Counted from the first letter of the stretch, positions 20,451 to 35,804 are shown. The stretch is 64,000 nucleotides of DNA from Lachnospiraceae bacterium MD329 (GCA_010206265.1 VIQV01000029.1:124001-188000); one strand, 5' to 3'. Program-made: numbers and translations. Notes: generated by a model from the sequence alone, not told the origin.

Positions 20451-20624
20451 ATGTCTGAAGTAAGAGTAAAAGATAACGAATCATTAGACAGCGCACTTCG
20501 CAGATTTAAACGTCAATGCGCAAAGTCGGGCGTAATGTCTGAAATCAGAAAGCGCGAGCACTACGAAAAGCCGAGTGTTAAACGTAAAAAGAAGTCTGAA
20601 GCAGCAAGAAAAAGAAAGTTCTAA
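20451..20624 (+). CDS. rpsU: Ribosomal protein bS21
   Basis: 57 residues: [20 protein letters not shown] followed by a strongly basic tail ([14 protein letters not shown]), the standard bS21 form in Firmicutes. It is part of the small ribosomal subunit near the mRNA exit. The start at 20451 follows GGAGGGAGG; the earlier in-frame start at 20424 has no ribosome site. The yqeY gene follows after 27 bases, a widely conserved pair. Confidence 0.96.
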
Positions 20625-20651
20625 TTTTTGAACGTAAGGAGATGACTTTTG

Positions 20652-21095
20652 ATGTCTTTAAAGGATAGATTGGCAGAGGATTTAAAGTCGTCAATGAAAA
20701 ATAAAGATACTGTCCGTAAGAATACTGTACAGCTCGTGAGAACGGCAATTTTACAGGTCGAAAAGGACAATAAGGTAACTCTTGAAGATGAGGATATTTT
20801 AGAAGTCATTGCGAAACAGCTTAAACAGCGCAAAGACTCACTCCCTGAATATGAAAAGAGTGGCAGAGAGGATTTAATCTCTCAGTTAAAACAGGAAATG
20901 GAAGTTTTGATGGAATACCTTCCTGAACAGCTTACTGAGGACGAGCTTCGTCCTATAGTTGAAGAGGCTGTTCAGGCTGTCGGTGCGTCAGGTATGAAGG
21001 ATATGGGCAAGGTTATGGAATATGTTATGCCCAAAGTTAAAGGCAGAGCCGACGGAAAGGCTGTAAGCGCTATAGCTAAAAGCCTGTTTAATTAA
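20652..21095 (+). CDS. yqeY: GatB/YqeY domain protein
   Basis: 147 residues, complete. It matches the YqeY family (LKDRLAEDLKSSMKNKD, then LPEQLTEDELRPIVEEA and GRADGKAVS near the end), which resembles the tail domain of the GatB amidotransferase subunit and probably contacts tRNA. Exact cellular role is not established. ATG 20652 is used because AAGGAG lies ten bases before it. Co-transcribed with rpsU. Confidence 0.93.
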   Translation: MSLKDRLAEDLKSSMKNKDTVRKNTVQLVRTAILQVEKDNKVTLEDEDILEVIAKQLKQRKDSLPEYEKSGREDLISQLKQEMEVLMEYLPEQLTEDELRPIVEEAVQAVGASGMKDMGKVMEYVMPKVKGRADGKAVSAIAKSLFN

Positions 21096-21122
21096 AAAGA
21101 ATATTGTAAAAACGTACAGAGG

Positions 21123-21149
21123 TTCAATGGCTAACCAATAGCCATTGAA
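21123..21149 (+). terminator. Hairpin between yqeY and tRNA-Thr
   Basis: Perfect 11-base inverted repeat TTCAATGGCTA / TAGCCATTGAA with loop ACCAA. The T-run comes only 10 bases later (ATTTTTG), so it may be a terminator or a processing hairpin before the tRNA. Confidence 0.6.
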
Positions 21150-21165
21150 TAGTCTGTGCATTTTT

Positions 21166-21241
21166 GCTGGTATAGCTCAGTTGGTAGAGCAGCTCATTCG
21201 TAATGAGCAGGCCGCGGGTTCGAGTCCCATTACCAGCTCCA
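21166..21241 (+). tRNA. tRNA-Thr (anticodon CGT)
   Basis: A complete 76-base cloverleaf. The acceptor arm GCTGGTA pairs with TACCAGC. The anticodon stem GCTCA/TGAGC encloses loop TTCGTAA with anticodon CGT, and the T loop is GGTTCGAGTCCC-like. CCA is encoded at 21239-21241. A terminator follows at once. Confidence 0.96.
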
Positions 21242-21474: not shown

Positions 21475-22272
21475 TTACTCCAGTGACATTGCGAGCCTGT
21501 AAATAACAACACAAGTCCATAACTTTGTATCATCAAGGTTAAGTCCGTCCCCTGTACCGACAATTATACCATTATCTACGCACCACTTCACCGCAGTACG
21601 TGCCCATTCAGGCATATTATTATCAATATAATTATAAATCATTGGATTTTGCAGCTTATAAACCTCATTCTGCAAAACGTCTACACGCGCTGTCTGGTCA
21701 GCTATCAGCTTTTTAAGTTCTTCATATTGAGCCATAGTCAATTCCTCCTCAAAATCCTCACCGAGTATTGCATCGCCAATCGCTTGAGCAACTCCCTGTG
21801 CGGTTACTTTTTTATACAAATCCACATCTGAACGCGTATCGACAAAACACACCTCTACAAGCATTGCTCGCGCGTTTGTACGTCGTATAACATACAAATT
21901 CGAACCGTTTTTTATACCTCGGTTTATAAATCCCAACTTCTCCATATTCTCGCAGACAAGTTCTGCCTGACGGAATCTTTCACCGTTATAAGTATACACC
22001 TCCGTACCTCTGCCGCCGCCTGAATTAAAGTGAATTGACACAAACAAATCAAGCGGCTGTCTGTTCGCCATATCGACTATTTCACGCAGATTCTCCTGAG
22101 TACTTGACGCGCGGTCATTCGTACAGTCTATAACTGTAACGCCTCTTTCCCTGAGATAATACATAAGGCTGTACCCAACCGCTCGCGTTTCGCTGCTTTC
22201 ACTTATATAACCGACCGCTCCGCTGCCGGGCTGACCGCTTATCGTATGTCCGCAGTTTATTCCGACTATCAT
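21475..22272 (-). CDS. N-acetylmuramoyl-L-alanine amidase (endolysin)
   Basis: 265 residues. An Amidase_3 catalytic domain (about 1-175) carries the zinc ligands of CGH (residue 9), a Glu near SESSETRA, SIHFNS and the catalytic Glu of LVEVCFVD. The C-terminal part (about 180-265) has a helical linker and a small domain with MPEWARTAVKWCVDNG, common in clostridial phage endolysins and probably for wall binding. It would cut peptidoglycan to release particles. Last gene of the particle cluster, directly after the holin gene, with no secretion signal of its own. Confidence 0.9.
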   Translation of the reverse strand: MIVGINCGHTISGQPGSGAVGYISESSETRAVGYSLMYYLRERGVTVIDCTNDRASSTQENLREIVDMANRQPLDLFVSIHFNSGGGRGTEVYTYNGERFRQAELVCENMEKLGFINRGIKNGSNLYVIRRTNARAMLVEVCFVDTRSDVDLYKKVTAQGVAQAIGDAILGEDFEEELTMAQYEELKKLIADQTARVDVLQNEVYKLQNPMIYNYIDNNMPEWARTAVKWCVDNGIIVGTGDGLNLDDTKLWTCVVIYRLAMSLE

Positions 22273-22317
22273 ACTCTCACCTCACATAATAATTGTAAGT
22301 CTGTTTATTATATATAT

Positions 22318-22719
22318 TCACTGCTGTTTGTCCCTATCACGAATTTGCAGTAAAATATTTTTCATCCCGTCCGGCATATCGGGCAGTATTTCCGCGGCAT
22401 TTTCAAGTATGGAAATACTCTCGTTTGCTATGTAAAACATAATAACCATTTCACGTATTGCAGTACCGCCCGTAAGCACCTGTATAACATTTGCAAGCGC
22501 CACAACCGTAAGCACCGTAATTTTTTTAAGTATACCCTTAAACCCGATTTCACTCGACATCTGTTTTGTGTACACCGCTTTTATGACACCCGTAATATAG
22601 TCCATTACCATCAATATGACAAGCGTATATAAAACCGTATCCCACTTACCGAAAACACCTGCCAGTATTCCGCCTGCTATACCGAAAAATACACTTATTG
22701 AATTAAAAATCTTATCCAC
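22318..22719 (-). CDS. Phage holin family protein
   Basis: 133 residues with three or four membrane helices (about 10-28, 32-55 with VMDYITGVIKAV, 72-92). The segment MDYITGVIKAVYTK...GFKGILKKI is the signature of the phage holin 4 / phi-Cp-type family. Holins make pores that let the endolysin reach the wall. It lies between the tail tip gene and the endolysin gene, the usual place. Confidence 0.9.
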   Translation of the reverse strand: MDKIFNSISVFFGIAGGILAGVFGKWDTVLYTLVILMVMDYITGVIKAVYTKQMSSEIGFKGILKKITVLTVVALANVIQVLTGGTAIREMVIMFYIANESISILENAAEILPDMPDGMKNILLQIRDRDKQQ

Positions 22720-22733
22720 CTCTGTCCCCTCCT

Positions 22734-24149
22734 TTACTCCGTTAAAATTTTCTTACCGTTTATACATAAATATCCCGCCTCATTTTTCGTAATCGTGTTT
22801 GTACCGATAATAATTTTCTCGGCGGTCAAATCTCCTTTAAAATCCATTTTTCCGTCCGTACCCGTATCTATCGCAATATTGCCTGCATTGTCGCGTATTT
22901 TACATATAAATTTACCGTTCATATTGCCAATCTGAACCTTTGTAATACTGCCGTTTGAGATTTTCAGCAGGTCTGACAGAATCGATAAATCACCCGAATC
23001 CGACGTAAGGCGCACACCGCTGTTTGAAATCACCCCTGCAACTGCCTGCGCCTTAACCTTACCTGTTTCCGTAGAAATTTTGCTGTAACGCCGCGTAAGC
23101 GTTCCCATCTGTTCCAGATAAAAGAATAAATCACGCTTCACTCTGCCGATTGAAATAACAGTTCCGTCATTCTGATACGGATAATATTCAAGCTTAATAA
23201 CACGCTCTCTAATTTCGTTTCCGCTGTCTATCACTACAACCTCGTCGCCCAATTCAAGATGTTCGCTGCTGCCGCTTTCCTCCAGCTTTGAAATATCGGC
23301 AAACGTGCCTGTAATATTAATACTCGGCACATCGATTCTTTCTTCGTTCGCGCTGTCGAATTCCCATAGCGCGCGGCGTTTTATCTTGTCAGGCTCCATA
23401 TAATCGCTGTAATCGCGGTAACCCTCGCGCACACCGTAAACACCTGCGTTTGCGCTCTGAATATACTGCACTCCACCGTTCACACTGCCAATATGCGCGT
23501 CGTCCTTACCGTACGGATACAAACGTGTAACCATATCCGTTATATCACGTTCAACCGATATATTATGCATATTCTTTGTAAGGTCAAGACGCATATTATT
23601 GTTATGTCCTATTTTTTCAACAAGCGCAATACTGTAGTTATCCGAATAAATCTCACCCTTACCGCAGCTCTCAATAACTGCGCGTACCACGTCAAACGGA
23701 TTTGTCTTATCGGTTGAAAAAAAGTCAATCAGAAATCCGTCGTAATCAACCCGTTTCATTCCAAGTTCAGACAGTTTACTGTCGGAAATAAGAGTAAACT
23801 TGCTCCCTGAAAAAACCTTTGCTAAGATATTTGACGGACTTACTCCCATCATATCAGGAACATTCTGCAAGTGAATATTCGGAGCGTCGGCATTATAGAC
23901 ATGATGACATTCCGCCTCCAATACCGCCTCACCGCCCTTACTCCTTGCGACGCGTATTATTCTGTACGCCTGACCCTCACAGACCACAATTTTATTTTCT
24001 TCAATCATTTCCGATTTATCATTAATAGGATTTGTAAATTCCAGCATACGCGTACCGTTGATTTCGTGTGTGACGCGTACATTGTACGCGTCACCAAGCG
24101 TTATACCTTTTGTAAAATCCTCGGCATTGTATGGTAAAAGCTTTAACAT
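22734..24149 (-). CDS. Tail-associated (tail tip) structural protein
   Basis: 471 residues. The N-terminal part (about 1-330) matches the prophage tail / minor structural protein family found in siphophage baseplates (Tal-like). The C-terminal part (about 380-471) has the short repeat style NMNGKFICKIRDNAGNIAIDTGT, as in tail-tip extensions. It is short for a Tal protein that carries peptidase or receptor domains. No separate tail fibre gene follows, so this may be the only protein that could contact a host cell. Confidence 0.78.
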   Translation of the reverse strand: MLKLLPYNAEDFTKGITLGDAYNVRVTHEINGTRMLEFTNPINDKSEMIEENKIVVCEGQAYRIIRVARSKGGEAVLEAECHHVYNADAPNIHLQNVPDMMGVSPSNILAKVFSGSKFTLISDSKLSELGMKRVDYDGFLIDFFSTDKTNPFDVVRAVIESCGKGEIYSDNYSIALVEKIGHNNNMRLDLTKNMHNISVERDITDMVTRLYPYGKDDAHIGSVNGGVQYIQSANAGVYGVREGYRDYSDYMEPDKIKRRALWEFDSANEERIDVPSINITGTFADISKLEESGSSEHLELGDEVVVIDSGNEIRERVIKLEYYPYQNDGTVISIGRVKRDLFFYLEQMGTLTRRYSKISTETGKVKAQAVAGVISNSGVRLTSDSGDLSILSDLLKISNGSITKVQIGNMNGKFICKIRDNAGNIAIDTGTDGKMDFKGDLTAEKIIIGTNTITKNEAGYLCINGKKILTE

Positions 24150-24161
24150 TCTTCTTCCTCC

Positions 24162-25001
24162 TTATTCGGCGCCCCAGTTTATTGAATTAAAATCCACCCC
24201 GTATGTAAATTCGGGAGAATATTTTACTTCTATGTTAATTGCAGATGTGTTTGAATTTTCAATATGAATTACATTTACACCTGCCGCCAATTCAAAAAAT
24301 TCACCGCTTACCGATATATCCCCGTCAACATCTGTCACACTCTGATTTTCACAATCCACCGTCACTCTGCCAAACGCGTCAAACGACAGCTTTTTATCCC
24401 CTGCCGTTATTATAATTTCATCAGCGCTGCCGCTCATTTCAAGAACCGGTCTTACGGGTCTTTCACCAAAATTAAGAATTTCTATATCTCCGCTGCCATA
24501 TACAGTGCCCTTAAGATATGCGTCAATACCAATCGGAATATTTGTATCAAGAGGTACCGCAAAATCAAGCGTCGGACCTTCACTTGAAAATGCACAGGTG
24601 CTGAACGGTTTAACTCGGAATGCAACGTCCAGTACTGCGCACTTACCCGCGTGTTCGGGAAGATATACAATTTCGTCAAGAATACGTCCCTCCCATACCG
24701 TGTACGGCATATCGTCAAATACCAGTTCGCCTCTGCCCATCAGCCACATTGACAATGCCGACAGTTTATTCTGCATTTCAATAAGACTGTCCGCCTGTAT
24801 GCTGATTGACACGCTTATAACGCGTTCATAAAAAAATTCACGTCCCATAGGATTCGACCTTGAAAAATCATACACGCCGTCGCGGCACGGAATATCGACT
24901 GTAAAACTTTTTGTTTCGGGACGTATGGGACGCGACTTTGTTTTTACCGTAACACCGAATTCAGATGAATGTCTGCCATTAAAACTAAAACCGTTTCTCA
25001 T
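24162..25001 (-). CDS. Distal tail protein (Dit, Sipho_tail family)
   Basis: 279 residues beginning MRNGFSFNGRHSSEFGVTVK, the usual start of distal tail proteins in Gram-positive siphophages, which form a hexameric ring joining tail tube and tip. A galectin-like C-terminal half is plausible. Gene order tape measure, Dit, Tal is standard for siphovirus tails. Tight spacing to both neighbours (15 and 12 bases). Confidence 0.85.
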   Translation of the reverse strand: MRNGFSFNGRHSSEFGVTVKTKSRPIRPETKSFTVDIPCRDGVYDFSRSNPMGREFFYERVISVSISIQADSLIEMQNKLSALSMWLMGRGELVFDDMPYTVWEGRILDEIVYLPEHAGKCAVLDVAFRVKPFSTCAFSSEGPTLDFAVPLDTNIPIGIDAYLKGTVYGSGDIEILNFGERPVRPVLEMSGSADEIIITAGDKKLSFDAFGRVTVDCENQSVTDVDGDISVSGEFFELAAGVNVIHIENSNTSAINIEVKYSPEFTYGVDFNSINWGAE

Positions 25002-25016
25002 TTGTAATTCCCTCCA

Positions 25017-26747
25017 TCAATAATACTTGCTATGCGCTATGCTAAGTCCGACCTTGTTTTTAAGCGCGTCAATAATATCTGAGCTGTTCGAGGAAATGCT
25101 TATTTTTCTGTTATCGGAATACGAACTGGACGAAACACGTATTGACTTTATCGCGCTTATTGTTTCGGCAAACAGTCCTGAAATCACATTCTGCATACCC
25201 TTCATATCATTATTTACACTCCGTACAATTCCCTCAATGTTAATACCTGATTTTTCAATAGTGTATAAAAGATATTTTTTGTTTGCCTCAATAACTTCAT
25301 AATCTTCTTCAAGCTTGTTGAGTGTTTCCGTATGTGTTTTTTGAAGCGCGTACATTTCCTCCTCACGCCGTATTTTTTTCATTTGTTCCTGCAGTGATTT
25401 GTACTTATCCATACCGCGTTCGGTCACAGCGCCTGCGTAAATTTTAAGCTCGTGCGCTATTCTTGCCTTATCCGCCTGCCTGTCCTCTGCCGCCCATTTT
25501 TCCGAAAGCGAGTTTTCCTCGTTCGCAAAGCGTTCTTTTGTATTTTTTATGTATTCCTTTTGCCTTGACAGCAGCTCGTCAACCTCGTCCATTTTTGCTT
25601 TATATAAATCAAGCTTTGCAATCATCGTATCATCACGGTATTCCTGCCAGCCGACATAACCGCCGTCGTACATCTGCTGTATACGCTCTATACTGCGTTC
25701 ATAAAACTGAACTGGAGAATCGCCCCATTCCTCCCAGTCGTCATAGGTGTCACGGATATTTTTCCAGTTTTTCGCGTCGCTCTGCCATTTTGTGTACACC
25801 GCATAATTTTTCTGCTCCGTAAGTTTGCCTATTTTTAAATCTACGCCTGCCTTGTACTCATAAAAATCGTCCCAGATTTCCTTCATTTCATCTGATGAAT
25901 ACATAGTTGACGCGACCATTTTCGACACCATCTCATTATATGACTCTAACTGACGTTTATAAGCCTCTATCTGACCGTCAACGCCCATTCCGCCAACCTC
26001 GGTCTGGTATTTTATCCACGCGTCAGAATGTTTTTTGTAGTCTGCGAGCGCGGCAGAGCTCTCTTTTTTCTGCGCGCTCCAAATTTTCTGCTGCGCCGCA
26101 AAAATCTCCTCTTGACATTCCTTTACCGCCTCGCTGTCATACATAAACTGCTCCATAAGCTCGTTCCACCATTCAAGCTCCTGCGCCGCAGACATATTAT
26201 GCGTTTTCTTATAATGCGTAAAATCCGCTTTTGCGGATTCAAACATCTCATTGTTTTTTCCGCGCGCATAATGAGGAATACCGAGCCCCTTCATAATTGC
26301 CTTTGTTTCATCTGCCGTGTAAACCTTATCGCCTTTTGAAAGCGGTACAATTACGTCACGTCCCGAAAACATCATCAGCCGTCCGTTATGCTCCACCAGT
26401 TCTCTCGGGTCGCTTACGCCGCGTTCATCATTTATTACGCCCAAACCTTCACGGGCATTTTTTGTACCGCCTGCCAGACGCGGAATCCCCGACACTGCAT
26501 AACGCAAAGATATAGTAACCGTCTTATCCGACAAACTGTTAATACTCCTCTTTGCCGCCGCCACACCCTCCGCCGTGTTATCTACGGCAGTCAGCTTAAA
26601 GGACGCCTCCTTACCTGCAAAATCATTCATTATTTTGCCTGCGGACGAATTTAAAGTGCCGATTGCCGCCTCCGCCGCGTTCAATGAGCTTATAAGCCCA
26701 GACGCGTCGCCCGTTATACTGACCGAAAGATTTGCAGCCTCTGCCAT
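25017..26747 (-). CDS. Short tail tape measure protein
   Basis: 576 residues, mostly alpha-helical and coiled coil with many charged heptads (about 150-500). The N-terminus (SVSITGDASGLISSLNAAEA) and central GGxxNAREG region resemble tape measure starts. It lies after the gpG/gpGT chaperone genes and before Dit, the fixed place of the tape measure. It is short (phages often have 700-1500 residues) and shows no clear membrane helices or peptidase domain, implying a short tail. Confidence 0.78.
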   Translation of the reverse strand: MAEAANLSVSITGDASGLISSLNAAEAAIGTLNSSAGKIMNDFAGKEASFKLTAVDNTAEGVAAAKRSINSLSDKTVTISLRYAVSGIPRLAGGTKNAREGLGVINDERGVSDPRELVEHNGRLMMFSGRDVIVPLSKGDKVYTADETKAIMKGLGIPHYARGKNNEMFESAKADFTHYKKTHNMSAAQELEWWNELMEQFMYDSEAVKECQEEIFAAQQKIWSAQKKESSAALADYKKHSDAWIKYQTEVGGMGVDGQIEAYKRQLESYNEMVSKMVASTMYSSDEMKEIWDDFYEYKAGVDLKIGKLTEQKNYAVYTKWQSDAKNWKNIRDTYDDWEEWGDSPVQFYERSIERIQQMYDGGYVGWQEYRDDTMIAKLDLYKAKMDEVDELLSRQKEYIKNTKERFANEENSLSEKWAAEDRQADKARIAHELKIYAGAVTERGMDKYKSLQEQMKKIRREEEMYALQKTHTETLNKLEEDYEVIEANKKYLLYTIEKSGINIEGIVRSVNNDMKGMQNVISGLFAETISAIKSIRVSSSSYSDNRKISISSNSSDIIDALKNKVGLSIAHSKYY

Positions 26748-26750
26748 AAA

Positions 26751-27205
26751 CTATACCTCCTTTCCGTAGAACATTTTTAAATGCTCGTCCGTGTATTCTT
26801 CCTCTTCACGCATACTGTCAAGCATACGGAAAAGCACCCACGGATTCTGCCGTCCCACCTCGTCAGGCAGCAGATGATGGCACTCCAGAAATATGATGTA
26901 TATATCTCTGAGAGCACCGCTGCCGCCGCCTGACGTTATTCGTTTTTTGACGAAAGCGCGTCAACATAAAAACCCCATAGGGTTATACACATTTTTGCGC
27001 GTGTGTTTATATCCAGAGAACCAATTATATCATTGGTGGCGTCCGTACCCTCAAACAGGTAATCCACCGCGTCACGGCATATGTTAAGCGGACCTTTTTT
27101 ACCGTCGTCGTTATGTGCGTCGTTTATAATGCACATAGCCTCAAAGTCAAACGGCTTGGATACATATTTAATTTTGTCCTTTGTAAATGTTAATGTATGC
27201 TGCAT
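26751..27205 (-). CDS. gpGT-type tail assembly chaperone made by -1 frameshift
   Basis: The gpG frame (27205-26936) contains the slippery heptamer A AAA AAC at 26948-26942, two codons before its stop. Slipping back one base joins an open frame that continues to TAG at 26753-26751 and adds about 65 residues (KRITSGGGSGALRDIYI..., ending MFYGKEV). That frame has no good start of its own. Tail assembly chaperones of many siphophages are made as a short form and a frameshifted long form; position just before the tape measure gene fits exactly. Confidence 0.8.
26936..27205 (-). CDS. gpG-type tail assembly chaperone, short form
   Basis: 89 residues, MQHTLTFTKDKIKYVSKPFD... ending VDALSSKNE. It lies between the major tail protein and tape measure genes, where the G/GT chaperone pair is found; these keep the tape measure soluble during tail assembly. 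The frameshift site is in its last codons. Confidence 0.82.
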   Translation of the reverse strand: MQHTLTFTKDKIKYVSKPFDFEAMCIINDAHNDDGKKGPLNICRDAVDYLFEGTDATNDIIGSLDINTRAKMCITLWGFYVDALSSKNE

Positions 27206-27217
27206 TTCGTTTCTCCT

Positions 27218-27817
27218 TTACACCGTTTCAGGATAGTAATTCATATCCTTAAACCACTGTTCTTCAAAAGCCTCTCTTGTAACGCCTGACGGTAAATCGC
27301 TCTCGTCAAAATATGCGTAATAATTATTGTCAAAATCACGCTGTACAGCAGTGTAAGTCGCTTTGGCGGTCTGTCTGTCAATAGAACCGCTTGACGGTTT
27401 TGTTTTACCGCCGACATTTGACGCAAAGCTGTATGAGCCTTTATAATATCTGACGTAACGGTATGAACCGTCCGACTTCAATATTCGCCACGCCACACCG
27501 AAATACACTGTCTTTGTGTCATTGCCGACTTCTACAACGCCGTTTTTGCGTTCCAGTCCGCGCCAAATAGCGTCAACCTCAGGCGGAATATCTGCATTTG
27601 TAATATCGTGTCCGATTTTTTCTATATAGCTTGCTGTTTCATACGCGCCGTTATCAGCGTCAAAAATCTCACTGCCTCCCGCGTCTGTAGGCGCAATTTC
27701 AACAGTGCCCTTGAGGTTGTAAGCGTCGCCGTATTCCGTACCCTCTGCGGTATCAGAAACAACGTTAAAGAAAGTATATTTGTCTACACCTATTGTAGGT
27801 AATGGTTTTTTGTTCAT
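27218..27817 (-). CDS. Major tail tube protein
   Basis: 199 residues, soluble, beta-rich. The N-terminus (PTIGVDKYTFFNVV) and TVEIAPTDAGGSEIFDADNG with a following IEKIGHDIT match the phi13/Gram-positive major tail protein family. Copies of it stack into the tail tube. Length and place (after head-tail connectors, before the chaperones) are standard. Confidence 0.87.
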   Translation of the reverse strand: MNKKPLPTIGVDKYTFFNVVSDTAEGTEYGDAYNLKGTVEIAPTDAGGSEIFDADNGAYETASYIEKIGHDITNADIPPEVDAIWRGLERKNGVVEVGNDTKTVYFGVAWRILKSDGSYRYVRYYKGSYSFASNVGGKTKPSSGSIDRQTAKATYTAVQRDFDNNYYAYFDESDLPSGVTREAFEEQWFKDMNYYPETV

Positions 27818-27870
27818 TTTTCATTTGCTCCTTTTTAGATTATTTTGTCTTAAAGTCCGGTTTACCGGTA

Positions 27871-28215
27871 TCATTCTAATATGAAATACTTTTGAAATCT
27901 CATCGTTCTGTGATACAGCTTGTCGTTTCCGCGCGGTACGTCCATTGACATTTCACGCGTCCAGCCGTCAGAGGTCAGCACTTTGTTTACCTCTATTGAA
28001 ATATCGTAACACTCCTTCGGACTGCGTGACCATATATCAATCTGTACATAGCCCTCTTGTATACTCTCGTTATTGTCGGCATAAAACGCGCCCTTTTCCG
28101 ACAGATTGTAATAGCTTATCACAGGCAGACGAGAAAAATGTTCAGGGTATTGGTATACAAGATTGTACCCTGTTTTTTCAAGGCTTTTCTTCGCCTCATT
28201 ATTTATATCAAGCAT
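27871..28215 (-). CDS. Tail terminator / completion protein
   Basis: 114 residues. Sequence such as VISYYNLSEKGAFYADNNES and VQIDIWSRSPKECYDISIEV is typical of the tail-completion (gp17/DUF3168-like) proteins that cap the tail tube before joining the head. It lies between the HK97 gp10-like and the major tail genes, the expected place. Confidence 0.75.
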   Translation of the reverse strand: MLDINNEAKKSLEKTGYNLVYQYPEHFSRLPVISYYNLSEKGAFYADNNESIQEGYVQIDIWSRSPKECYDISIEVNKVLTSDGWTREMSMDVPRGNDKLYHRTMRFQKYFILE

Positions 28216-28226
28216 TGCTTTCCTCC

Positions 28227-28553
28227 TTAAAGTGCCGTCAGCGTTGCGGCTATTGCTTCTGCAACCGCGTCCGAATTATTTATAAGCGACGGCACAAGGT
28301 ACGGCTGCGGAGCTGATTTTGAAGTACCGAATTCCACATACGCGGCATATTCTGTATTTGCTGAAACCACGGCGGTATTACCTTCCCCGCTTACCTCAAT
28401 CGACTCACGCAGTCTGCCCGTATCAACGGGACAGGAATTACGCGCCCTCTGAGCAACGTTCTCCCCTGCCTCCCTGACCGCCTGCGCCATACTCTCTCCA
28501 ATTCTTTCAGCAATCTTTGAAAGACCTCCGTTATATGTAACACTCACTTTCAC
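28227..28553 (-). CDS. HK97 gp10-like tail component
   Basis: 108 residues with the family core ARNSCPVDTGRLRESIE and YAAYVEFGT, seen in HK97 gp10-type proteins of the head-tail joint. Complete by length. Stop and start spacing to both neighbours is very short, as in the rest of the operon. Confidence 0.88.
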   Translation of the reverse strand: MKVSVTYNGGLSKIAERIGESMAQAVREAGENVAQRARNSCPVDTGRLRESIEVSGEGNTAVVSANTEYAAYVEFGTSKSAPQPYLVPSLINNSDAVAEAIAATLTAL

Positions 28554-28554
28554 G

Positions 28555-28857
28555 TTAAATCCCCCTTATCAAAGCGCACATTCCAAGTTTCCATATCTCT
28601 GCACGAACTATTCTGTACCACTCTCCGCCTATTTTTACACGTCTGCCGTTTACAAGCAAATTATTGTGTCCGCAGTACAGCTTATACGCTTTATTATCTG
28701 AAAAACCATAAATATCGTTATCCATATCGCCGTCATAAGGCTGTATGTCGCACAGAACTCTTCCCAGAAACGTATCCTGACCGTCATTACCGTAGTTTTC
28801 GTTCTTTTCTGAATATACGCTTATTTTGGTATCATAAAATCTGTCAAACGGATTCAT
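28555..28857 (-). CDS. Head-tail adaptor (head closure) protein
   Basis: About 100 residues from ATG 28857 (GGAG ten bases upstream); ATG 28863 is an alternative, and the earlier frame to 28896 lies inside the preceding gene. The motif RVKIGGEWYRIVRAEIWK resembles SPP1 gp16-type stoppers that close the head after DNA packaging. It overlaps the end of the connector gene. Confidence 0.78.
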   Translation of the reverse strand: MNPFDRFYDTKISVYSEKNENYGNDGQDTFLGRVLCDIQPYDGDMDNDIYGFSDNKAYKLYCGHNNLLVNGRRVKIGGEWYRIVRAEIWKLGMCALIRGI

Positions 28858-29203
28858 TTTCATCACTCTCCACCTCTGACGGCAGACATACCGCACGGCT
28901 TACGAACGGTTTGAGCCGTTCGTAATATCCGCTTAAAACACTGCCGCTGTCGCTGTATTCAACGCGTCTTTCACCTTCGGAGATTGTCCTTATGCCGTCG
29001 GACACGCCCCTTTTATATTCTGCCGCCGCAATGCGCGGTATAAGTCCTTCAAGCTGACGCGGCAATACATCAATACGGCAGTAGGACAGCACCGCATTTA
29101 TCGTATCTTCAATCAAGAGTAAAAGCAGACCGTCATTGTCCTCGTCATTAAACTCCAAAAGCAATTTTACTGCCTCCAGATATTCAGGTTTAGTGTCCCT
29201 CAT
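28844..29203 (-). CDS. Head-tail connector (gp6/gp15-like)
   Basis: 119 residues, helical, with LLEFNDEDNDGLLLLLIEDTI and VLSYCRIDVLPRQLEGLIPR, matching the phage connector family that docks under the portal. A 12-base repeat (AGGGACACTAAA) forms its second to fifth codons and lies again just before its ATG. Confidence 0.82.
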   Translation of the reverse strand: MRDTKPEYLEAVKLLLEFNDEDNDGLLLLLIEDTINAVLSYCRIDVLPRQLEGLIPRIAAAEYKRGVSDGIRTISEGERRVEYSDSGSVLSGYYERLKPFVSRAVCLPSEVESDENESV

Positions 29204-29218
29204 TTTAGTGTCCCCCTA

Positions 29219-30052
29219 TTAATTGCCTGTCGCCGTACTGCTTTTGAATACATAAATTGCATTCTTTTTCTGACTGAGTACAAATGCGTCATAATATACT
29301 CTGCCTTCAACCAGCCAGCCGTTTATTCCTGGAGGATTATCGTGAATTTTATATTCCGAAAGTTTTACAGGCGCAGTAACTGCCGACTGATTTGTTATAA
29401 TCAGCTCCACACCTTCCGGCAGATATGATGTCGGTACAACAATAACTGGAATACCGTCAATTGAACCAACCTGACCTTTTATAAGCATTTCCTGAGCCAT
29501 ATCACCGTTTCTTATAAAGCTTGCGTCCTCTTTGATGTTCTTGTAAAAGTTTGTCGAAACGAACGCAACACAGCCTGTAAGCGGTACGTTGTTTTCGATA
29601 AGCTCTGACGCGCCCGTCAGAAACGTATCGTATGCGGTAGTTTTGTTTAGTGTCCCTGTAACCGTCTTGCCTGCTCCCGTACAGATTTTCTCGAAACGGT
29701 ATTTGTCGATCTCGGGAACTACTACTTCACGTATTTGTCTTTGCAAAGCCGCACCTGCCGCATTTGACATCTGCGTATCGTTATATGTACCGCGGTCAAT
29801 CGTAAATGTAAAGCTCCTGTCCTTTGACATTGTAAGTTCCTGAACATTGCTCTCCAGTTCCTGCGGCGCGCCGTAACGGCTTGTTCCCGTTACGGAGTAA
29901 TCGTTCATATCCGCCGTCGGCACACTGTAGACATTTACGGTTTTCACGCCTACAAAGTCGTAATCGTTATTTACCGCAGGAGAAGTCATTGACTCCCTTG
30001 CAAATTTTTCATCAATTTTCTGAGCATATTTACTTGCGTAATTTATAGCCAT
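29219..30052 (-). CDS. Major capsid protein
   Basis: 277 residues. MAINYASKYAQKIDEKFARES at the start and TFTIDRGTYNDTQMSNAAGAALQRQ in the middle match HK97-fold major capsid proteins of the Gram-positive type that use a separate scaffold. No N-terminal delta domain, so the scaffold gene upstream provides that role. Complete by length; together with the short tape measure it implies a small siphovirus-like particle. Confidence 0.88.
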   Translation of the reverse strand: MAINYASKYAQKIDEKFARESMTSPAVNNDYDFVGVKTVNVYSVPTADMNDYSVTGTSRYGAPQELESNVQELTMSKDRSFTFTIDRGTYNDTQMSNAAGAALQRQIREVVVPEIDKYRFEKICTGAGKTVTGTLNKTTAYDTFLTGASELIENNVPLTGCVAFVSTNFYKNIKEDASFIRNGDMAQEMLIKGQVGSIDGIPVIVVPTSYLPEGVELIITNQSAVTAPVKLSEYKIHDNPPGINGWLVEGRVYYDAFVLSQKKNAIYVFKSSTATGN

Positions 30053-30075
30053 TATTTATCAATCCTTTCTGTTAA

Positions 30076-30618
30076 TTATATCCCTAACCCGTTTAAAAAC
30101 GGGTCGCTGCCTTCTGGAACTTCTCTTGAAATTTTCGGTGTCTTACCCTTTAATCTTTCGTACAGTCCCGCCTCAATTGCCTTTAAATATTCTGCCTTGA
30201 AAGCGGAAATATTTTTAACCGTCGTTTCCTTGTCAGCGTCGGCAAGCATATGTGCAAACGTTACGGGCAAATTCTGCGCCGCAAGCTCCTTTGCCGCCTC
30301 AAACTCGGCTCTTTCGCTGACATACTGCTGTCTTTCCTCCTCGAAGTCCTTCTGCTTTTTCTCCATTTCAAACTTCGCTCTTTCCTCAGCAGACATTGAG
30401 GCAAGACGCGCGGCGTCCTCTCTTTCGGCAGTAACTCTCGTTTCCATATCCTTTTCCCACGCCTGCTTTGCGCCGGCAAGCTCCTCGCTTATAAGACTTT
30501 TGACAAGCTCTTTAAGCTCATCATTTTTATGTCCTTCATTATTCTTGTCCGATGACTTTTTATGTCCCTCATTTTTGTTTTGAGCATCGTTTTTTAGTGT
30601 CCCTTTTTCTTTATCCAT
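30076..30618 (-). CDS. Capsid scaffolding protein (DUF4355-like)
   Basis: 180 residues, highly charged and helical (Lys/Glu/Asp-rich, coiled coil about 45-120), with a C-terminal KISREVPEGSDPFLNGLG tail typical of DUF4355 scaffolds. These bind capsid subunits and guide shell assembly. It directly precedes the capsid gene. Confidence 0.85.
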   Translation of the reverse strand: MDKEKGTLKNDAQNKNEGHKKSSDKNNEGHKNDELKELVKSLISEELAGAKQAWEKDMETRVTAEREDAARLASMSAEERAKFEMEKKQKDFEEERQQYVSERAEFEAAKELAAQNLPVTFAHMLADADKETTVKNISAFKAEYLKAIEAGLYERLKGKTPKISREVPEGSDPFLNGLGI

Positions 30619-30639
30619 TGTTCTTCCTCCTTTATCATT

Positions 30640-31956
30640 TTAGTGTCCCTGCGGTCTTGCTGATTTTTCCTCCAATAAACGTTCCTTTTGCGCTAACTGC
30701 GCCTCCTCCTTGGCGTCACCGACAAACGAAAGCTGACTTAACAGCGTTTCATTCGTTGCAATACCCGAAAGATTTCTTATCATTTGTGAAACTTCAAGCT
30801 CATTTACAGGCAGATTTCTTGTAAAAACAGCGTCAATCCTATGCAGCGGCACATATTCCATAGCTCCTTTAAGAGATAGAAAATTAATGTACAGCTCCAA
30901 CCGTCTTTTTAACGACTTCGCAAAATAGCGTTCCTTGTTTCTTATGTGCTGTTCAAAACCCATAAGCTTGTACTTTATCGCTACTCCGGATAAATTGGTT
31001 CCGAAGGTCTGGTCGGATAAATCAGGTATCATTGAAAAACGGTGAATATCCGATTTAAGACTGTCACGCAAAACCTCAATATCGCCCTCCGACATAACCT
31101 TTGCAAGATATTCCGCCTCCGCACCGTCATAACCCATAAGAATACGTTCCTCGCGCAGTTTCTTTGCCTGATCACTGTCAATTTCAATATTCCTCAGGAA
31201 CAAAAATGCGTCAACAAACTGCTCCTTATCATTTACACGGTCCGACTGCAAAACATTATACGCGTCAATAAGCGGTATAAGCTGTTCAAAATCACCCTGC
31301 TTTTCTTCGTTGTTTCGGTATTCAATAAGCGGTATGGCGCCAAAATAATGACGGTGTTTTTCACTTAAAGTCATATGCGTAAAACTGTCGGCGCTGTTGG
31401 TATAGGTGTACATATACTCACTGTCGCACACCATACAGCATACGCTTGTTACACTGCCGTCAACATCACGGTTTTTATAGTAATGAATACCATAAATCGG
31501 ATTTTCACCGACGCCCGAACCATACACCACAAATGTATTCATCGGCGGCAGGCACACGCTTTTGGGCTGAGAATACTCATCCACATAAACAAGCTCGTAT
31601 GCTTTGCCGTAAATACTCATCATCTTTTCAAGCTCCGAATCAATACTTGCCATATCCTGAACAATAAAACTGTTTTTAAGCGACTCAATATCGTAGCCAT
31701 CGGAACAGGTGTACGTTATCGGATTTCCGACAAGATAACTCTTTGCAATATCCACAATATATTTTGCGTGATTGCACACAACCCTGTTGTTTGCAACTCC
31801 CTCGCTGTAACGGCGCCGTGAAATAATATCGTGTTTACCCGTATAGTAGTTTCTTAACTGCTCGTAACGCTCGCCCTCAAGCATATGACGCGCAATTAAT
31901 TTTTGAAGTATGACATCATCTAAACCGTCATTTAAGATTTTTTCATCAATTATCAT
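30640..31956 (-). CDS. Portal protein (SPP1 gp6-like)
   Basis: 438 residues. Motifs VDIAKSYLVGNPITYTCSDG and SGVAIKYKLMGFEQHIRNKE are typical of SPP1-type portal proteins, which form the dodecameric ring through which DNA enters the head. Start overlaps the terminase stop by four bases (ATGA). The SPP1-type minor head protein gene that often follows a portal is missing here. Confidence 0.9.
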   Translation of the reverse strand: MIIDEKILNDGLDDVILQKLIARHMLEGERYEQLRNYYTGKHDIISRRRYSEGVANNRVVCNHAKYIVDIAKSYLVGNPITYTCSDGYDIESLKNSFIVQDMASIDSELEKMMSIYGKAYELVYVDEYSQPKSVCLPPMNTFVVYGSGVGENPIYGIHYYKNRDVDGSVTSVCCMVCDSEYMYTYTNSADSFTHMTLSEKHRHYFGAIPLIEYRNNEEKQGDFEQLIPLIDAYNVLQSDRVNDKEQFVDAFLFLRNIEIDSDQAKKLREERILMGYDGAEAEYLAKVMSEGDIEVLRDSLKSDIHRFSMIPDLSDQTFGTNLSGVAIKYKLMGFEQHIRNKERYFAKSLKRRLELYINFLSLKGAMEYVPLHRIDAVFTRNLPVNELEVSQMIRNLSGIATNETLLSQLSFVGDAKEEAQLAQKERLLEEKSARPQGH

Positions 31957-33203
31957 ACATTCAGCTCCTTTCTGTTTATAATCCTCGCTCTTTTGTTTGT
32001 GATATACTCCTCAAGCGCATAACGCACGGCGTCAATACTATGATTGTTCTTATCAGGGTATTCAGCCTTAAATTCACCGTTTTTATCACGTTCCAGCTCG
32101 TACTCCGAAAACTCGCGCGCAGTATTTTTACACCGCTCCGAGTCAATCACAATTTTTCTTAAACCCTGCAAAAACCGTATACCGTATTCAATACTGTCAG
32201 GACCCTTGCGAGCTCCGCGCACACGCAGTCCATATCCTCTCAAATCATTTATACTCTTTGGTTCGGCGCTGTCACAAATAATGAGCCTTTCGGGATAACC
32301 ATACCGATAAATCTCTTCCGCCGCCCTGAAATTCGTCATTCCCGCCGCATATATCTCTCCAAAGATAAATAACACGTCATTATGAAGGTAACAAACGACA
32401 TAAACAAACGGGTCTGACGCAAAACCAAAATCAATACCGCATTTAACGTTATCAAAGCCCTGTATTTCGTCATCGGTAATACGGCGTATTTCGAGATTAT
32501 CAAACACTTCACCGCCCGTACCCGTCACTTCTCCGAGATACTCGTGATTATATTGTGTCGGGTGTAGCTTTTTAAGATACTCAGCCTCCAAAAAAAATTG
32601 TTCACCGAGCCATTCGCGCGGTACGTCAAGATATGTGCTTTTATGTACAAGCGTATCTTTACGCCGCTTTTGTATTTCACGGTTTACCCAGTTACGCCTG
32701 TTTTGCGGCGGGTTGTAGGAATAGAACACGGTAAATTTTTCACCGCCGCGCAGCATTGACTGGTTTATGGAACGGATTTCTTTCATTCCGTGAAACTCGT
32801 CAAGCTCCTCATACCAGACATAACGAATATAACCTTTTGTAACTTTTGTGGATTTAAGCTTTTGCGGCTTGTCAGCGCCCCGAAAAAGAATTTTCTGCCC
32901 TGTTTTTTTATAAATCATTTCGGGAACACTCGCTTTAATTTCCCACATATCGCCTACATTCAGCTTTTCCACTGCCCATATAAGCTGTGACAGCACACTG
33001 TCACGCAAATATGCGCCGACCTTGCGGAGTACAACGGCATTTGCGTCGGGATTCCGCATTATACCGAGGATTATTTCAATACTGATAAAACTTGATTTCG
33101 TCGAACCGCGTCCGCCGCACAGCCAGATGTGAGTGTAATCGTCAAGCGACCTGTGCACACTGTAAAATGACGGTGCGATAAGTTCATTCAGTCTTACCTG
33201 CAT
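31953..33203 (-). CDS. Large terminase subunit (PBSX family)
   Basis: About 416 residues. Walker A is CGGRGSTKSS (about residue 30); the C-terminal RNase H-like nuclease shows KCGIDFGFASDPF, LIICDSAEPKS and HSIDAVRYAL with its acidic metal ligands. It pumps DNA into the head and cuts it. The ATG at 33203 is preferred (GGTGA upstream); a GTG at 33212 is possible. Start overlaps the small terminase gene. All catalytic motifs look intact. Confidence 0.92.
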   Translation of the reverse strand: MQVRLNELIAPSFYSVHRSLDDYTHIWLCGGRGSTKSSFISIEIILGIMRNPDANAVVLRKVGAYLRDSVLSQLIWAVEKLNVGDMWEIKASVPEMIYKKTGQKILFRGADKPQKLKSTKVTKGYIRYVWYEELDEFHGMKEIRSINQSMLRGGEKFTVFYSYNPPQNRRNWVNREIQKRRKDTLVHKSTYLDVPREWLGEQFFLEAEYLKKLHPTQYNHEYLGEVTGTGGEVFDNLEIRRITDDEIQGFDNVKCGIDFGFASDPFVYVVCYLHNDVLFIFGEIYAAGMTNFRAAEEIYRYGYPERLIICDSAEPKSINDLRGYGLRVRGARKGPDSIEYGIRFLQGLRKIVIDSERCKNTAREFSEYELERDKNGEFKAEYPDKNNHSIDAVRYALEEYITNKRARIINRKELNV

Positions 33204-33408
33204 TTTTATCACCTGAAATATTGTCCACGATAATTACCTCACCCGTATCTGCCGCACGGCTTTCGGTAAACAGTCCGTAATGCTTTCCCAGAAGCTCAGC
33301 CGCCTTAAAGGAATCGGAAAACTTTATATTGTCTGTTTCATCAAAGCCGTCGCGCCGCATTACGTCTGTAAGGTATTCAAGAACCTCATTTTCATCTGCC
33401 ACACTCAC
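33184..33408 (-). CDS. Small terminase subunit lacking its DNA-binding domain
   Basis: 74 residues from GTG 33408, seven bases after AGGAGG. The sequence ENEVLEYLTDVMRRDGFDET ... FKAAELLGKHYGLFTE matches the C-terminal half of Terminase_2 family small subunits (the oligomerisation and TerL-contact part). The N-terminal helix-turn-helix region, normally 60-80 residues that recognises pac DNA, is absent. The longer open frame to 33468 overlaps the preceding Zn-ribbon gene, has no ribosome site, and its extra residues do not resemble the domain. See findings: loss of site recognition is expected if the particle packages any DNA. Confidence 0.72.
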   Translation of the reverse strand: MSVADENEVLEYLTDVMRRDGFDETDNIKFSDSFKAAELLGKHYGLFTESRAADTGEVIIVDNISGDKNAGKTE

Positions 33409-33419
33409 AGCGTCACCTC

Positions 33420-33620
33420 CTAAAACAGAACTTCTGTTTTGTAAATACACTCGCTGCAGCCGACACATTCCTCGTCCTCGTCGAGGTAATAATGTTCAGG
33501 CTCATACGCTCCGCACACGGGACATTTCTCATATTCCGCCTCACCGCAGTCACCGTAATTTTCCGTCCGCTCTCTTTCCATTGCCAAGAGCGACATCGGG
33601 TCATCATTTGAATAAATCAT
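33420..33620 (-). CDS. Small zinc-ribbon protein, first gene of the particle operon
   Basis: 66 residues with two CxxC pairs: CPVCGAYEPEHYY and CVGCSECIY, a classic zinc ribbon. It begins MIYSNDDPMSLLAMERERTE. AAAGGAG lies five bases before ATG 33620. Similar small Cys-rich proteins occur beside terminase genes in clostridial prophages, function unknown. A competing frame at 33413-33607 lacks Cys spacing and a ribosome site. Confidence 0.7.
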   Translation of the reverse strand: MIYSNDDPMSLLAMERERTENYGDCGEAEYEKCPVCGAYEPEHYYLDEDEECVGCSECIYKTEVLF

Positions 33621-33633
33621 AAGCACTCCTTTC

Positions 33634-33816
33634 TATCTTTTTAAGATACTATAACATTAAAAATTTTTGCCGGTTTTAAACCGTTCCTTTAAGACACCTC
33701 GATTATATCATAAAAAGATACTCTTGTCAAGCATTTTTGTTTCTTTTTAAGATATTTAATATATTTTACAGATACTTTTCCGCTTAACTGCTTGATTTTT
33801 GTTGATTTTTATGATA
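33634..33816. promoter_or_regulatory. Operator array between repressor and particle operon
   Basis: A 15-base palindrome TATCTTTTTAAGATA is perfect at 33634-33648. Near copies: TATCATAAAAAGATA (33706-33720, inside the spacer of the minus-strand promoter), TTTCTTTTTAAGATA (33740-33754) and a weaker TTGATTTTTATGATA (33802-33816, over the repressor's own start region). Spacing and position are those of a phage repressor operator set. Confidence 0.75.
33702..33730 (-). promoter_or_regulatory. Consensus promoter of the particle operon
   Basis: On the minus strand TTGACA (33730-33725), 17-base spacer, TATAAT (33707-33702). An operator palindrome occupies the spacer, so repressor binding would block polymerase. 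Transcript start near 33695, about 75 bases before the first gene. Confidence 0.85.
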
Positions 33817-33859
33817 CTATTAAAATATACAACTTACACAGATAAAAGGAGGAATTCCA

Positions 33860-34489
33860 ATGACAACGGGCGAAAGAATACGCCGTCTGCGCAAGGAACA
33901 CGGACTGACACAAGAGGAGCTTGGCGCAAAAATCGGTGTACAGAAAGCAGCCATACAAAAATACGAAAAAGGCACAGTAACAAATATTAAGCGCGATTCA
34001 CTTATAAAGCTGGCGCAGATTCTTGATACAACCCCCGAATACCTTCTCGGCTGGGACAATGCCCCTGCCAATGTTGAGGCGGTGGACGAAAGCGAATTTG
34101 TAAATATACCGATTATAGGCAGGGTTGCGGCAGGCGTTACCTGCTTTGCGGAAAACAATATTACAGGTTATGAGCCTGTAATGCGGAGTGACCTCTCACA
34201 CGGTGAGCAGTATGCGTTTTTACGGGTAGTCGGCGACAGTATGTACCCTGTATTTATGGAAGGCGACCTCGTGCTTGTACGCTGTCAGACCTCAGTTGAC
34301 AGCGGCAGTTATGCGGTAGTCACAATTGATGATGAAGACGGTGTTGTAAAAAAAGTAGTTTATGACAGGGACTTTATCGAACTTCAGTCAATTAACCCTA
34401 TGTATCCGCCGCGCAGGTTTGAAGGCGAGGAAGTTTTACGTATACGTGTTTTCGGACTTGTTAAAGAAATAAAGCGAAAATTCCGATAA
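33860..34489 (+). CDS. LexA/CI-like repressor with self-cleavage domain
   Basis: 209 residues. Helix-turn-helix of the XRE type at about 5-60 (LTQEELGAKIGVQKAAIQKY), then an S24 peptidase domain: cleavage site Ala91-Gly92 in GRVAAGVT, nucleophile Ser127 in VVGDSMYP and the general-base Lys at about 164 in GVVKKV. All parts needed for RecA-stimulated self-cleavage are present, so DNA damage should release repression. It faces away from the particle operon with the operator array between them. AAAGGAGG precedes the ATG. Confidence 0.93.
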   Translation: MTTGERIRRLRKEHGLTQEELGAKIGVQKAAIQKYEKGTVTNIKRDSLIKLAQILDTTPEYLLGWDNAPANVEAVDESEFVNIPIIGRVAAGVTCFAENNITGYEPVMRSDLSHGEQYAFLRVVGDSMYPVFMEGDLVLVRCQTSVDSGSYAVVTIDDEDGVVKKVVYDRDFIELQSINPMYPPRRFEGEEVLRIRVFGLVKEIKRKFR

Positions 34490-34553: not shown

Positions 34554-35804
34554 TTGTACCAATATAAAACACTTTCAAACGGCATACGTGTTGTTGCAGA
34601 AAAAATCACATATCTTAAATCAATTTCAATCGGTGTATGGGTTGGAAACGGTTCAAGATACGAAAACAAAAATGAAAATGGTATTTCTCATTTTATTGAG
34701 CATATGCTGTTTAAGGGAACACAAATCCGAACCGCGGCACAAATTGCTCACGAGATTGATTCTGTAGGCGGTCAGCTTGACGCGTTTACAACGCGTGAAT
34801 ATACCTGTTTTTACACAAAAACGCTTGACGAGCATATCCCGATTGCGCTAGATGTGCTTTCGGATATGATGTACAATCCGCGTCTTGACGAATCGGATAT
34901 GTCGCTTGAAAGACAGGTTATAAAGGAAGAAATACGAATGTATGAGGACAGTCCCGAAGACCTTGTCTATGACCTTTCTTCATATGCCGTATGGGGTGAT
35001 ACTCCAATGGGCAGAACAATTCTCGGCACATATGAAAGTCTTGACGGAATAACTCCTGATATAATGCGTTCTTTTATGAATAATCATTACACAAGCGCAA
35101 ATACTATAATATCGGTATCCGGCAATTTTGACGATACATTTTTTGATTTGCTTGAAAAGTATTTCGGTACACGGAAAATGCCCGATACACTTCCGCCTCT
35201 TCCCGACGCGCCTTATCTTGCAGGCAGAAATATTGTAAAGAGCAAGGATATTGAGCAAATTCAGCTCGTCGCAACCTTTAAGGGTATAGACGTTATGGAC
35301 GAGAGCGTGTACGACCTGCTTGTATTTAACAATATATTCGGCAGCGGAATGTCGTCACGGCTTTTTCAGAATATCCGTGAAAAGCGCGGACTTGTGTATT
35401 CAATAAACGCAGGGCATAGCGCGTATATCGGTACGGGCGTATTTGATATTGCGGCAGGTATGAGCCCCTCAGGACTGAAAGAGGTCACGTCGCTGATTTC
35501 ACAGGAAATACGGACTGTTAAGCGCGATAAGCTGACGGCAGACGAAATTTCAAAAGCCAAGGAGCAGTTAAAAGGAAATTATATTCTTTCGGGTGAAAGC
35601 ACGGGCGCAAGAATGCAGGGCGCAGGACGTTCACTTCTGCTCGGCAAACCGATTCATACGCAAGAGGAAGTAATCAAAAAAATAGAGGCTGTAAATATCG
35701 ACTCCGTGGGCGATATTATAGACCGTGTACTTGATTCAAGTACATTATGCGTATCAGCCGTAGGACCTGTAGACAATATAGACGGAATATTTGACATAAA
35801 TTAG
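34554..35804 (+). CDS. M16 family (insulinase-type) zinc protease
   Basis: 416 residues from a TTG start, about ten bases after AAGGAG. The inverted zinc motif HFIEHMLFKGT (HxxEH, about residue 48) and the downstream Glu are present. Length and sequence match the YmxG/processing-peptidase subfamily common in Firmicutes, whose substrates are mostly unknown. No signal peptide; cytoplasmic. Monocistronic. Confidence 0.9.
   Translation: MYQYKTLSNGIRVVAEKITYLKSISIGVWVGNGSRYENKNENGISHFIEHMLFKGTQIRTAAQIAHEIDSVGGQLDAFTTREYTCFYTKTLDEHIPIALDVLSDMMYNPRLDESDMSLERQVIKEEIRMYEDSPEDLVYDLSSYAVWGDTPMGRTILGTYESLDGITPDIMRSFMNNHYTSANTIISVSGNFDDTFFDLLEKYFGTRKMPDTLPPLPDAPYLAGRNIVKSKDIEQIQLVATFKGIDVMDESVYDLLVFNNIFGSGMSSRLFQNIREKRGLVYSINAGHSAYIGTGVFDIAAGMSPSGLKEVTSLISQEIRTVKRDKLTADEISKAKEQLKGNYILSGESTGARMQGAGRSLLLGKPIHTQEEVIKKIEAVNIDSVGDIIDRVLDSSTLCVSAVGPVDNIDGIFDIN

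Follow-up and report, generated by a model that had tools for sequence, protein, structure and literature searches.

We found that a 13-kb block of phage-type genes in a gut Clostridia genome is probably, at a chance that we put at roughly three in four, a domesticated siphovirus particle kept by the host lineage as a gene transfer agent (GTA). The block lies in the window, the 64,000-nucleotide stretch of DNA that was analysed (G000:C23:124001-188000, from a genome of 2.74 Mb in 86 contigs), where a minus-strand operon at 33626-21475 holds a complete siphovirus-type particle set together with lysis genes, as assigned by PHROG and Pfam. Since the means of self-copying and of recognising its own DNA appear to be lost, the particle would probably package random host DNA and spread it by delivery to other cells. 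GTAs are defined by six features (PMC9662315); the three that can be assessed from a genome, namely caudoviricete-derived proteins, endogenisation in the host genome and vertical inheritance, were all found here. The other three are packaging of mostly random host DNA, for which the proxy used was solely a small terminase subunit (TerS) devoid of a helix-turn-helix (HTH), a head too small to hold its own gene cluster, which here spans 13 kb, and delivery of DNA to other cells.

The operon, whose genes all lie on the minus strand, opens with a small zinc-ribbon protein of 66-68 aa (33420..33626; CPxCG...CxGCxxC), which alignment showed to be kept in every copy whose contig includes it. The earlier note had recognised the operon and placed its start at 33620; the operon stands, its start moves to 33626, and the zinc-ribbon gene, which the note had left unlabelled, is added as its first gene. 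Packaging and head functions follow: an HTH-less TerS of GTA type (33184..33402; partial match to Pfam Terminase_2, and alignment), an SPP1-type large terminase, TerL (31953..33212; Pfam Terminase_3 plus Terminase_3C; 2wbn, E = 1.5e-33), the portal protein (30640..31956; phrog_64, 1.1e-132), the head scaffold (30076..30618; phrog_172, 2.7e-23) and the major capsid protein (29219..30052; phrog_422, 6.4e-67), the last of which had no sequence match among solved structures. The connector region comprises a head-tail adaptor (28844..29203; phrog_132, 7.2e-21), a second connector or head protein (28555..28896; phrog_939, 2.4e-5), a neck or tail completion protein (28227..28553; phrog_5, 1.2e-21) and a tail terminator (27871..28215; phrog_78, 9e-20). 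The tail is encoded by the major tail (tube) protein (27218..27817; phrog_88, 1.8e-27), the tail assembly chaperones G and G-T (26751..27205), a short tape measure protein of 576 aa (25017..26747; phrog_1293 and phrog_167), the distal tail protein Dit (24162..25001; phrog_33, 1.6e-27; SPP1_Dit) and the tail tip protein Tal, a prophage endopeptidase tail (22734..24149; PF06605, 8.5e-28). In the chaperone gene, an ORF at 26936-27205 is followed by a −1 frameshift at the slippery site A AAA AAC (26948-26942 in the window) and a 63-aa extension to the stop at 26751. A holin (22318..22719; phrog_199, 2.3e-26) and an Amidase_3 endolysin (21475..22272; phrog_435, 2e-57; PF01520) complete the operon. 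Every particle and lysis part named in the earlier note is present and open. The PHROG and Pfam matches of the head, tail and packaging genes point to a caudoviricete origin of the particle proteins.

The cluster TerS lacks the usual N-terminal domain. It starts at a GTG (33402) in the window and is 72-73 aa long, and among the copies examined it measures 53-95 aa, varying with the species and the start codon chosen. The prophages of the family have a TerS of 120-175 aa, and that of phage contigs, where one was identified, spans 126-298 aa. It aligns solely to the C-terminal half of prophage TerS and covers positions 71-134 of the 141 in Pfam Terminase_2 (prophage TerS, 1-138 of 141). In structure models, phage-type TerS folds into an HTH bundle joined to a long helix; the short form, modelled with AlphaFold, comes out as two helices, at a low confidence (pLDDT 59.5) that lets the model serve as support only. 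Length, Pfam coverage and alignment thus agree with the published description of GTA-type TerS, which is 10-50% shorter than its phage counterparts, lacks the N-terminal HTH and is encoded directly upstream of terL (PMC6854486). We read the cluster TerS as having no N-terminal DNA-recognition domain, and packaging-signal recognition as apparently lost. The phage-contig and prophage control led us to reject a short TerS as a general trait of this phage group: the sole short-TerS phage contig with the cluster gene set (L035) is a cluster of genus g16 filed in a virus collection, and two further contigs (L099 and L100) do carry a 71-aa ORF ahead of TerL, but at another locus, beside a spoIVA-like gene. 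The 27 cluster TerLs form one clade (support 98/93.9), and the SPP1 type of TerL agrees with a headful origin, as has been put forward for RcGTA (PMC7947584).

Host genes directly flank the cluster, with tRNA-Thr, yqeY and S21 to the left and an M16 peptidase (34554..35804, plus strand) to the right; the latter marks the right boundary and adjoins the repressor in every copy of the window's genus (g1) whose contig extends there. The interval from the repressor to the lysin has no gene for integration, replication, a minor head protein or fibres, integration and replication functions are likewise missing next to it, and the longest direct repeat across the cluster ends was 11 bp, equal to the shuffled mean of 11, with none above chance. 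The tetranucleotide distance between cluster and host was 0.104, comparable to that of pieces of the host itself (0.096-0.117), compared with 0.298 for the element at 1-7 kb and 0.154 for a prophage elsewhere in the genome. The earlier note had described these absences, the lack of a visible att repeat and a base composition like that of the chromosome and unlike that of the 1-7 kb element, and each of these descriptions held. Given the missing integrase, replication genes and end repeats, a host-like composition and a fixed locus within the genus, the cluster is fully endogenised.

The integration and replication functions that mark a temperate phage are thus missing from the cluster, in contrast to its sibling prophage, a 33-kb element in the same genome (G000:C23:68229-101572) with a serine integrase. 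This prophage and SPP1-type siphophages share with the cluster the class of head-tail module and the chaperone frameshift architecture, and its TerL is ~63% identical to that of the cluster; unlike the cluster, it encodes a full TerS (130 aa, with HTH), a Mu-F-like minor head protein of 506 aa, a long tape measure of 1501 aa and a probable fibre of 771 aa. Prophages of this genome and of G001, G005, G009, G015, G018 and G004 form a clade separate from the cluster, within which a phage of genus 4 groups with a phage of genus 1 (with weaker support in a second tree), so that the prophages do not follow their hosts. Related full prophages occupy other sites and have full-length TerS, and the one fully examined has an integrase. 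These prophages, present in the same genomes, could in principle supply functions to a small, still-mobile phage or satellite that depends on a helper or a distant integrase. We regard such an element as very improbable here given the fixed location, the host-like composition, the lack of end repeats, a tree congruent with that of the hosts and, in G002, a deletion scar instead of an empty site.

We then considered the distribution of the cluster, drawing on relatives that are mostly fragmented assemblies. TerL relatives occurred in 36 of 61 related genomes, and six genera of this Clostridia family carry the cluster. A family-wide search with the first gene gave strong matches in 13/16 genomes of g1, 2/2 of g4, 1/2 of g6, 5/5 of g10, 3/3 of g11 and 1/1 of g16. 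Because zinc-ribbon homologues also occur in other, phage-like regions, we rejected this protein as a pure cluster marker and confirmed by synteny the clusters to which its matches led. The order M16 peptidase, repressor, structural operon is repeated in all ten congeners whose contigs extend there, placing the cluster at the same locus in relatives, and another congener (G013) also carries the cluster on a contig that ends early at this point. On the lysin side the cluster directly borders ordinary host genes that vary between subgroups. Outside g1, the right-hand neighbour is pheA in g4 and other host genes elsewhere; pheA also lies a few genes away from the cluster in the window. The cluster is missing in two congeners, G002 and G004 (the latter assembled in 600 contigs), and no strong marker match appeared in 11 of the family's genera, indicating that it is dispensable, a point against the GTA reading. 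All that G002 retains, between mscL and M16, is a fragment of the head-tail adaptor, 88 aa long; this locus is a deletion scar, and we rejected its reading as a clean empty site.

For 20 species, we compared the RpoB tree with one built from eight cluster proteins joined end to end: 14 of 17 splits were common to both, whereas label shuffling gave a maximum of 3 in 2000 shuffles; the remaining splits involved branches with weaker support. The cluster has been vertically inherited and has co-diversified with its host. Within the window's genus, synonymous divergence was of the same order for the cluster (dS 0.10-0.88) and RpoB (0.13-0.60); the g4 pair showed a cluster dS of 1.47, above the RpoB value of 0.47.

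Selection on the cluster is purifying, with dN/dS of 0.085-0.13 across five close pairs and one broader pair. Nearly all copies in the six genera have all cluster genes open, and the slippery site (A AAA AAC or A AAA AAA) with a −1 extension of 61-66 aa is kept in 18/18 copies. Integration and replication genes are absent, the tape measure gene is frameshifted in one relative (G003) and G002 bears its scar, all of which an ordinary defective prophage in decay would explain; we reject this reading as the least probable of those considered, because dN/dS lies well below 1, inheritance is congruent with the host, and the open genes, frameshift, promoter and operators are conserved. An F-type tailocin, a bacteriocin made from a phage tail, that still carried head genes as leftovers would likewise account for the complete flexible-tail module and the lysis genes. 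Tailocins, however, lose head and packaging genes, and in the cluster the genes for head, portal, scaffold and terminase remain intact, under a constraint as strong as that on the tail genes. Their retention led us to reject this explanation too, which we hold to be highly unlikely. The selection, the shared locus and the lack of a clean empty site, which the earlier note had proposed to examine, all favour its reading of a domesticated particle, as do the short TerS and host-tree congruence, two GTA criteria beyond those that it used.

Divergent from the operon lies a CI/LexA-type repressor (33860..34489, plus strand; HTH_3, PF01381, 1.1e-15; Peptidase_S24, PF00717, 4.5e-26) with the Ala-Gly, GDSM and Lys residues of self-cleavage, as the earlier note had reported; these residues are conserved across 18 species, and the repressor should be able in principle to self-cleave. 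The operon promoter, TTGACA-17-TATAAT (33702..33730, minus strand), holds a repressor-type operator in its spacer, and its hexamers and spacing are kept in 18/18 species, with one of the 18 copies reading TATTAT instead of TATAAT. Two operator-like sites, GTATCTTTTTATGATA in the promoter (33706..33721, minus strand) and GTATCTTAAAAAGATA just 5' of the first gene (33634..33649, minus strand), are the only two occurrences of the pattern in the 2.74-Mb genome, both at the cluster locus; this uniqueness is partly post hoc, as the search pattern was taken from the cluster's own promoter. The strict symmetrical pattern RTATCTTWWWAAGATAY had no site in the same genome. These putative operators may be bound by the cluster repressor, and DNA damage may induce the operon.

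The promoter spacer differs between genera. It carries an operator-like GTATCT...GATAT in g1 and in G024 of g10, and a LexA-box-like site of the CGAAC type, 1-2 mismatches from CGAACN4GTTCG, in g4, g6, g11 and g16. All cluster-bearing genera but g1 yielded a canonical LexA. In most g1 genomes the LexA search matched nothing other than the cluster repressor; it also gave an aberrant LexA-like protein in G014 and G011 and further, weaker matches in G002 and G004. The description of the cluster as SOS-controlled in the earlier note is an inference: repressor self-cleavage is possible in principle, LexA-box-like sites overlap the promoter in four other genera only, and the window's genus is mostly devoid of canonical LexA.

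The main rival to a gene transfer agent is a defensive particle like PBSX, which packages host DNA without delivering it and kills relatives via its tail. PBSX of Bacillus is a contractile-tailed killer. The self-cleaving-type repressor and the lysis genes fit such a particle, conservation alone would equally fit a killing particle, and the lack of any tail-fibre gene found in the cluster counts against the GTA reading. Among Gram-positives, PBSX is also the earlier example of a GTA-like particle, and its action is to kill (PMC12946183). The cluster has a Gram-positive host in common with PBSX of Bacillus subtilis, and the likeness would extend to SOS-type control by a phage-like repressor and packaging of host DNA, properties that in the cluster are inferred only (PMC12946183). 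The cluster is, however, a siphovirus-type set in which we found neither a recognisable gene for killing or immunity nor a variable module of fibre or receptor type; purifying selection acts on Tal (ω 0.06-0.155), and TerL and portal, which killing would not need, are retained (ω 0.013-0.22 where dS is finite). We consider a PBSX-like function unlikely, though less so than the other rivals.

The published gene transfer agent nearest to the cluster is FpGTA of Faecalibacterium (Borodovich et al. 2026, PMC12946183). Like the cluster, it belongs to a gut Clostridia host, is a compact domesticated cluster present throughout a genus, and has no replication genes and a TerS without an obvious DNA-binding domain (PMC12946183). 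FpGTA differs in being podovirus-like, with two operons and with baseplate, fibre and receptor-binding genes, whereas the cluster is siphovirus-type, with one operon, its own repressor and no fibre gene; FpGTA particles are proven and hold 8-9 kb of DNA, whereas those of the cluster are predicted from its genes. The TerL pattern scan had no Faecalibacterium among its matches, and FpGTA was compared by description. RcGTA-like GTAs (Rhodogtaviriformidae) resemble the cluster in their head-tail cluster of about 14 kb, headful-lineage TerL, shortened HTH-less TerS and long vertical inheritance (PMC6854486, PMC7947584, PMC9662315); the cluster differs in its bacterial class, its S24 repressor with dedicated operators and its lysis genes inside the operon.

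Taken as a gene transfer agent, the cluster would work as follows. The dedicated repressor would keep the single promoter off via operators in the promoter spacer until DNA damage led to RecA-stimulated self-cleavage or, in genera with the LexA-box-like site, to release of LexA. A few cells might then produce particles, into which the HTH-less TerS and headful-type TerL would load any host DNA at hand; lysis of the producing cell by holin and amidase would follow, and sibling cells would receive host DNA by injection from the particles and could recombine it. A ComEC-like competence gene lies on the same contig (C23:117642-119948), which suggests, though it is only suggestive, a possible route of DNA uptake.

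Few lineages are known to have GTAs, and according to the authors of the FpGTA study, FpGTA and PBSX are the sole Gram-positive cases (PMC12946183). Our literature search found no report of this cluster among open-licence papers. We think it more likely than not that the cluster is a previously undescribed, multi-genus siphovirus-type GTA of gut Clostridia whose control has had time to be re-wired, with a LexA-box-like site in four genera and an own-repressor operator in the same spacer in the window's genus, mostly without canonical LexA, and in one LexA-bearing genus. If so, this six-genus cluster is a plausible source of host DNA in gut virus-like-particle fractions and gives a gene set to look for in viromes. 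A genome that harbours both a prophage and a domesticated particle of its class would also be a natural experiment in the passage from phage to GTA, in which TerS loses DNA recognition, the tape measure shortens, and the minor head protein and the fibre disappear. On this reading, a further cluster in a sister family, where TerS and TerL appear to be fused, would make the order a hotspot of repeated domestication.

A different compact head-tail cluster was found in stretches L243-L251, which belong to genus g18 of the sister family f2 (genomes G037, G044, G046, G047, G048, G052, G053 and G058). Its gene order is collinear across 8 species, as far as the contigs extend, and MCP identity among the copies is 78-86%. 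The TerL of this cluster carries an N-terminal extension of ~70-100 aa, which looks like an HTH-less TerS fused onto TerL. No integrase was seen within those parts of L243-L251 that were read, and the copy in G058 looks decayed. We consider the g18 cluster a candidate for a second gene transfer agent.

Copies of the window's own cluster also turned up in rearranged form and among virus contigs. In L196, from genome G064, terL is flanked by the genes for the tail terminator and the tube rather than standing at the start of the operon; this stretch is a rearranged copy of the cluster. L035 (IMG/VR 3300026549_002485), catalogued as a virus contig, is the cluster of genus g16, and its TerL is nearly identical to that of genome G030.

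Canonical LexA was not found in most genomes of the window's genus, g1 (G000-G015). Only an aberrant LexA-like protein was present in G014 and G011, adjoining an ImmA-like gene in the former, and canonical LexA is present in the cluster-bearing genera other than g1.

The small zinc-ribbon protein that opens the operon (window 33420-33626, minus strand) is probably of phage origin, since homologues also sit in other, phage-like regions (L188:7898-8104 and further second matches of the family-wide search).

An isolated block of four genes, in which a 71-aa TerS-like ORF and TerL are accompanied by a small ORF and one for a 540-aa protein of portal size, was observed in two Clostridia assemblies from goat and yak (L099:5958-9300 and L100:9784-13126). 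A spoIVA-like gene directly follows it in both, and the block is possibly a phage relic retained next to a sporulation gene.

Elsewhere in the window, the S21-yqeY-tRNA-Thr block adjoining the lysin gene (20451-21241) is reversed in orientation relative to G014 and G010. The AT-rich stretch at 1-7 kb (GC 0.354), within which 5514-7076 encodes a 520-aa serine recombinase, is probably another integrated element.
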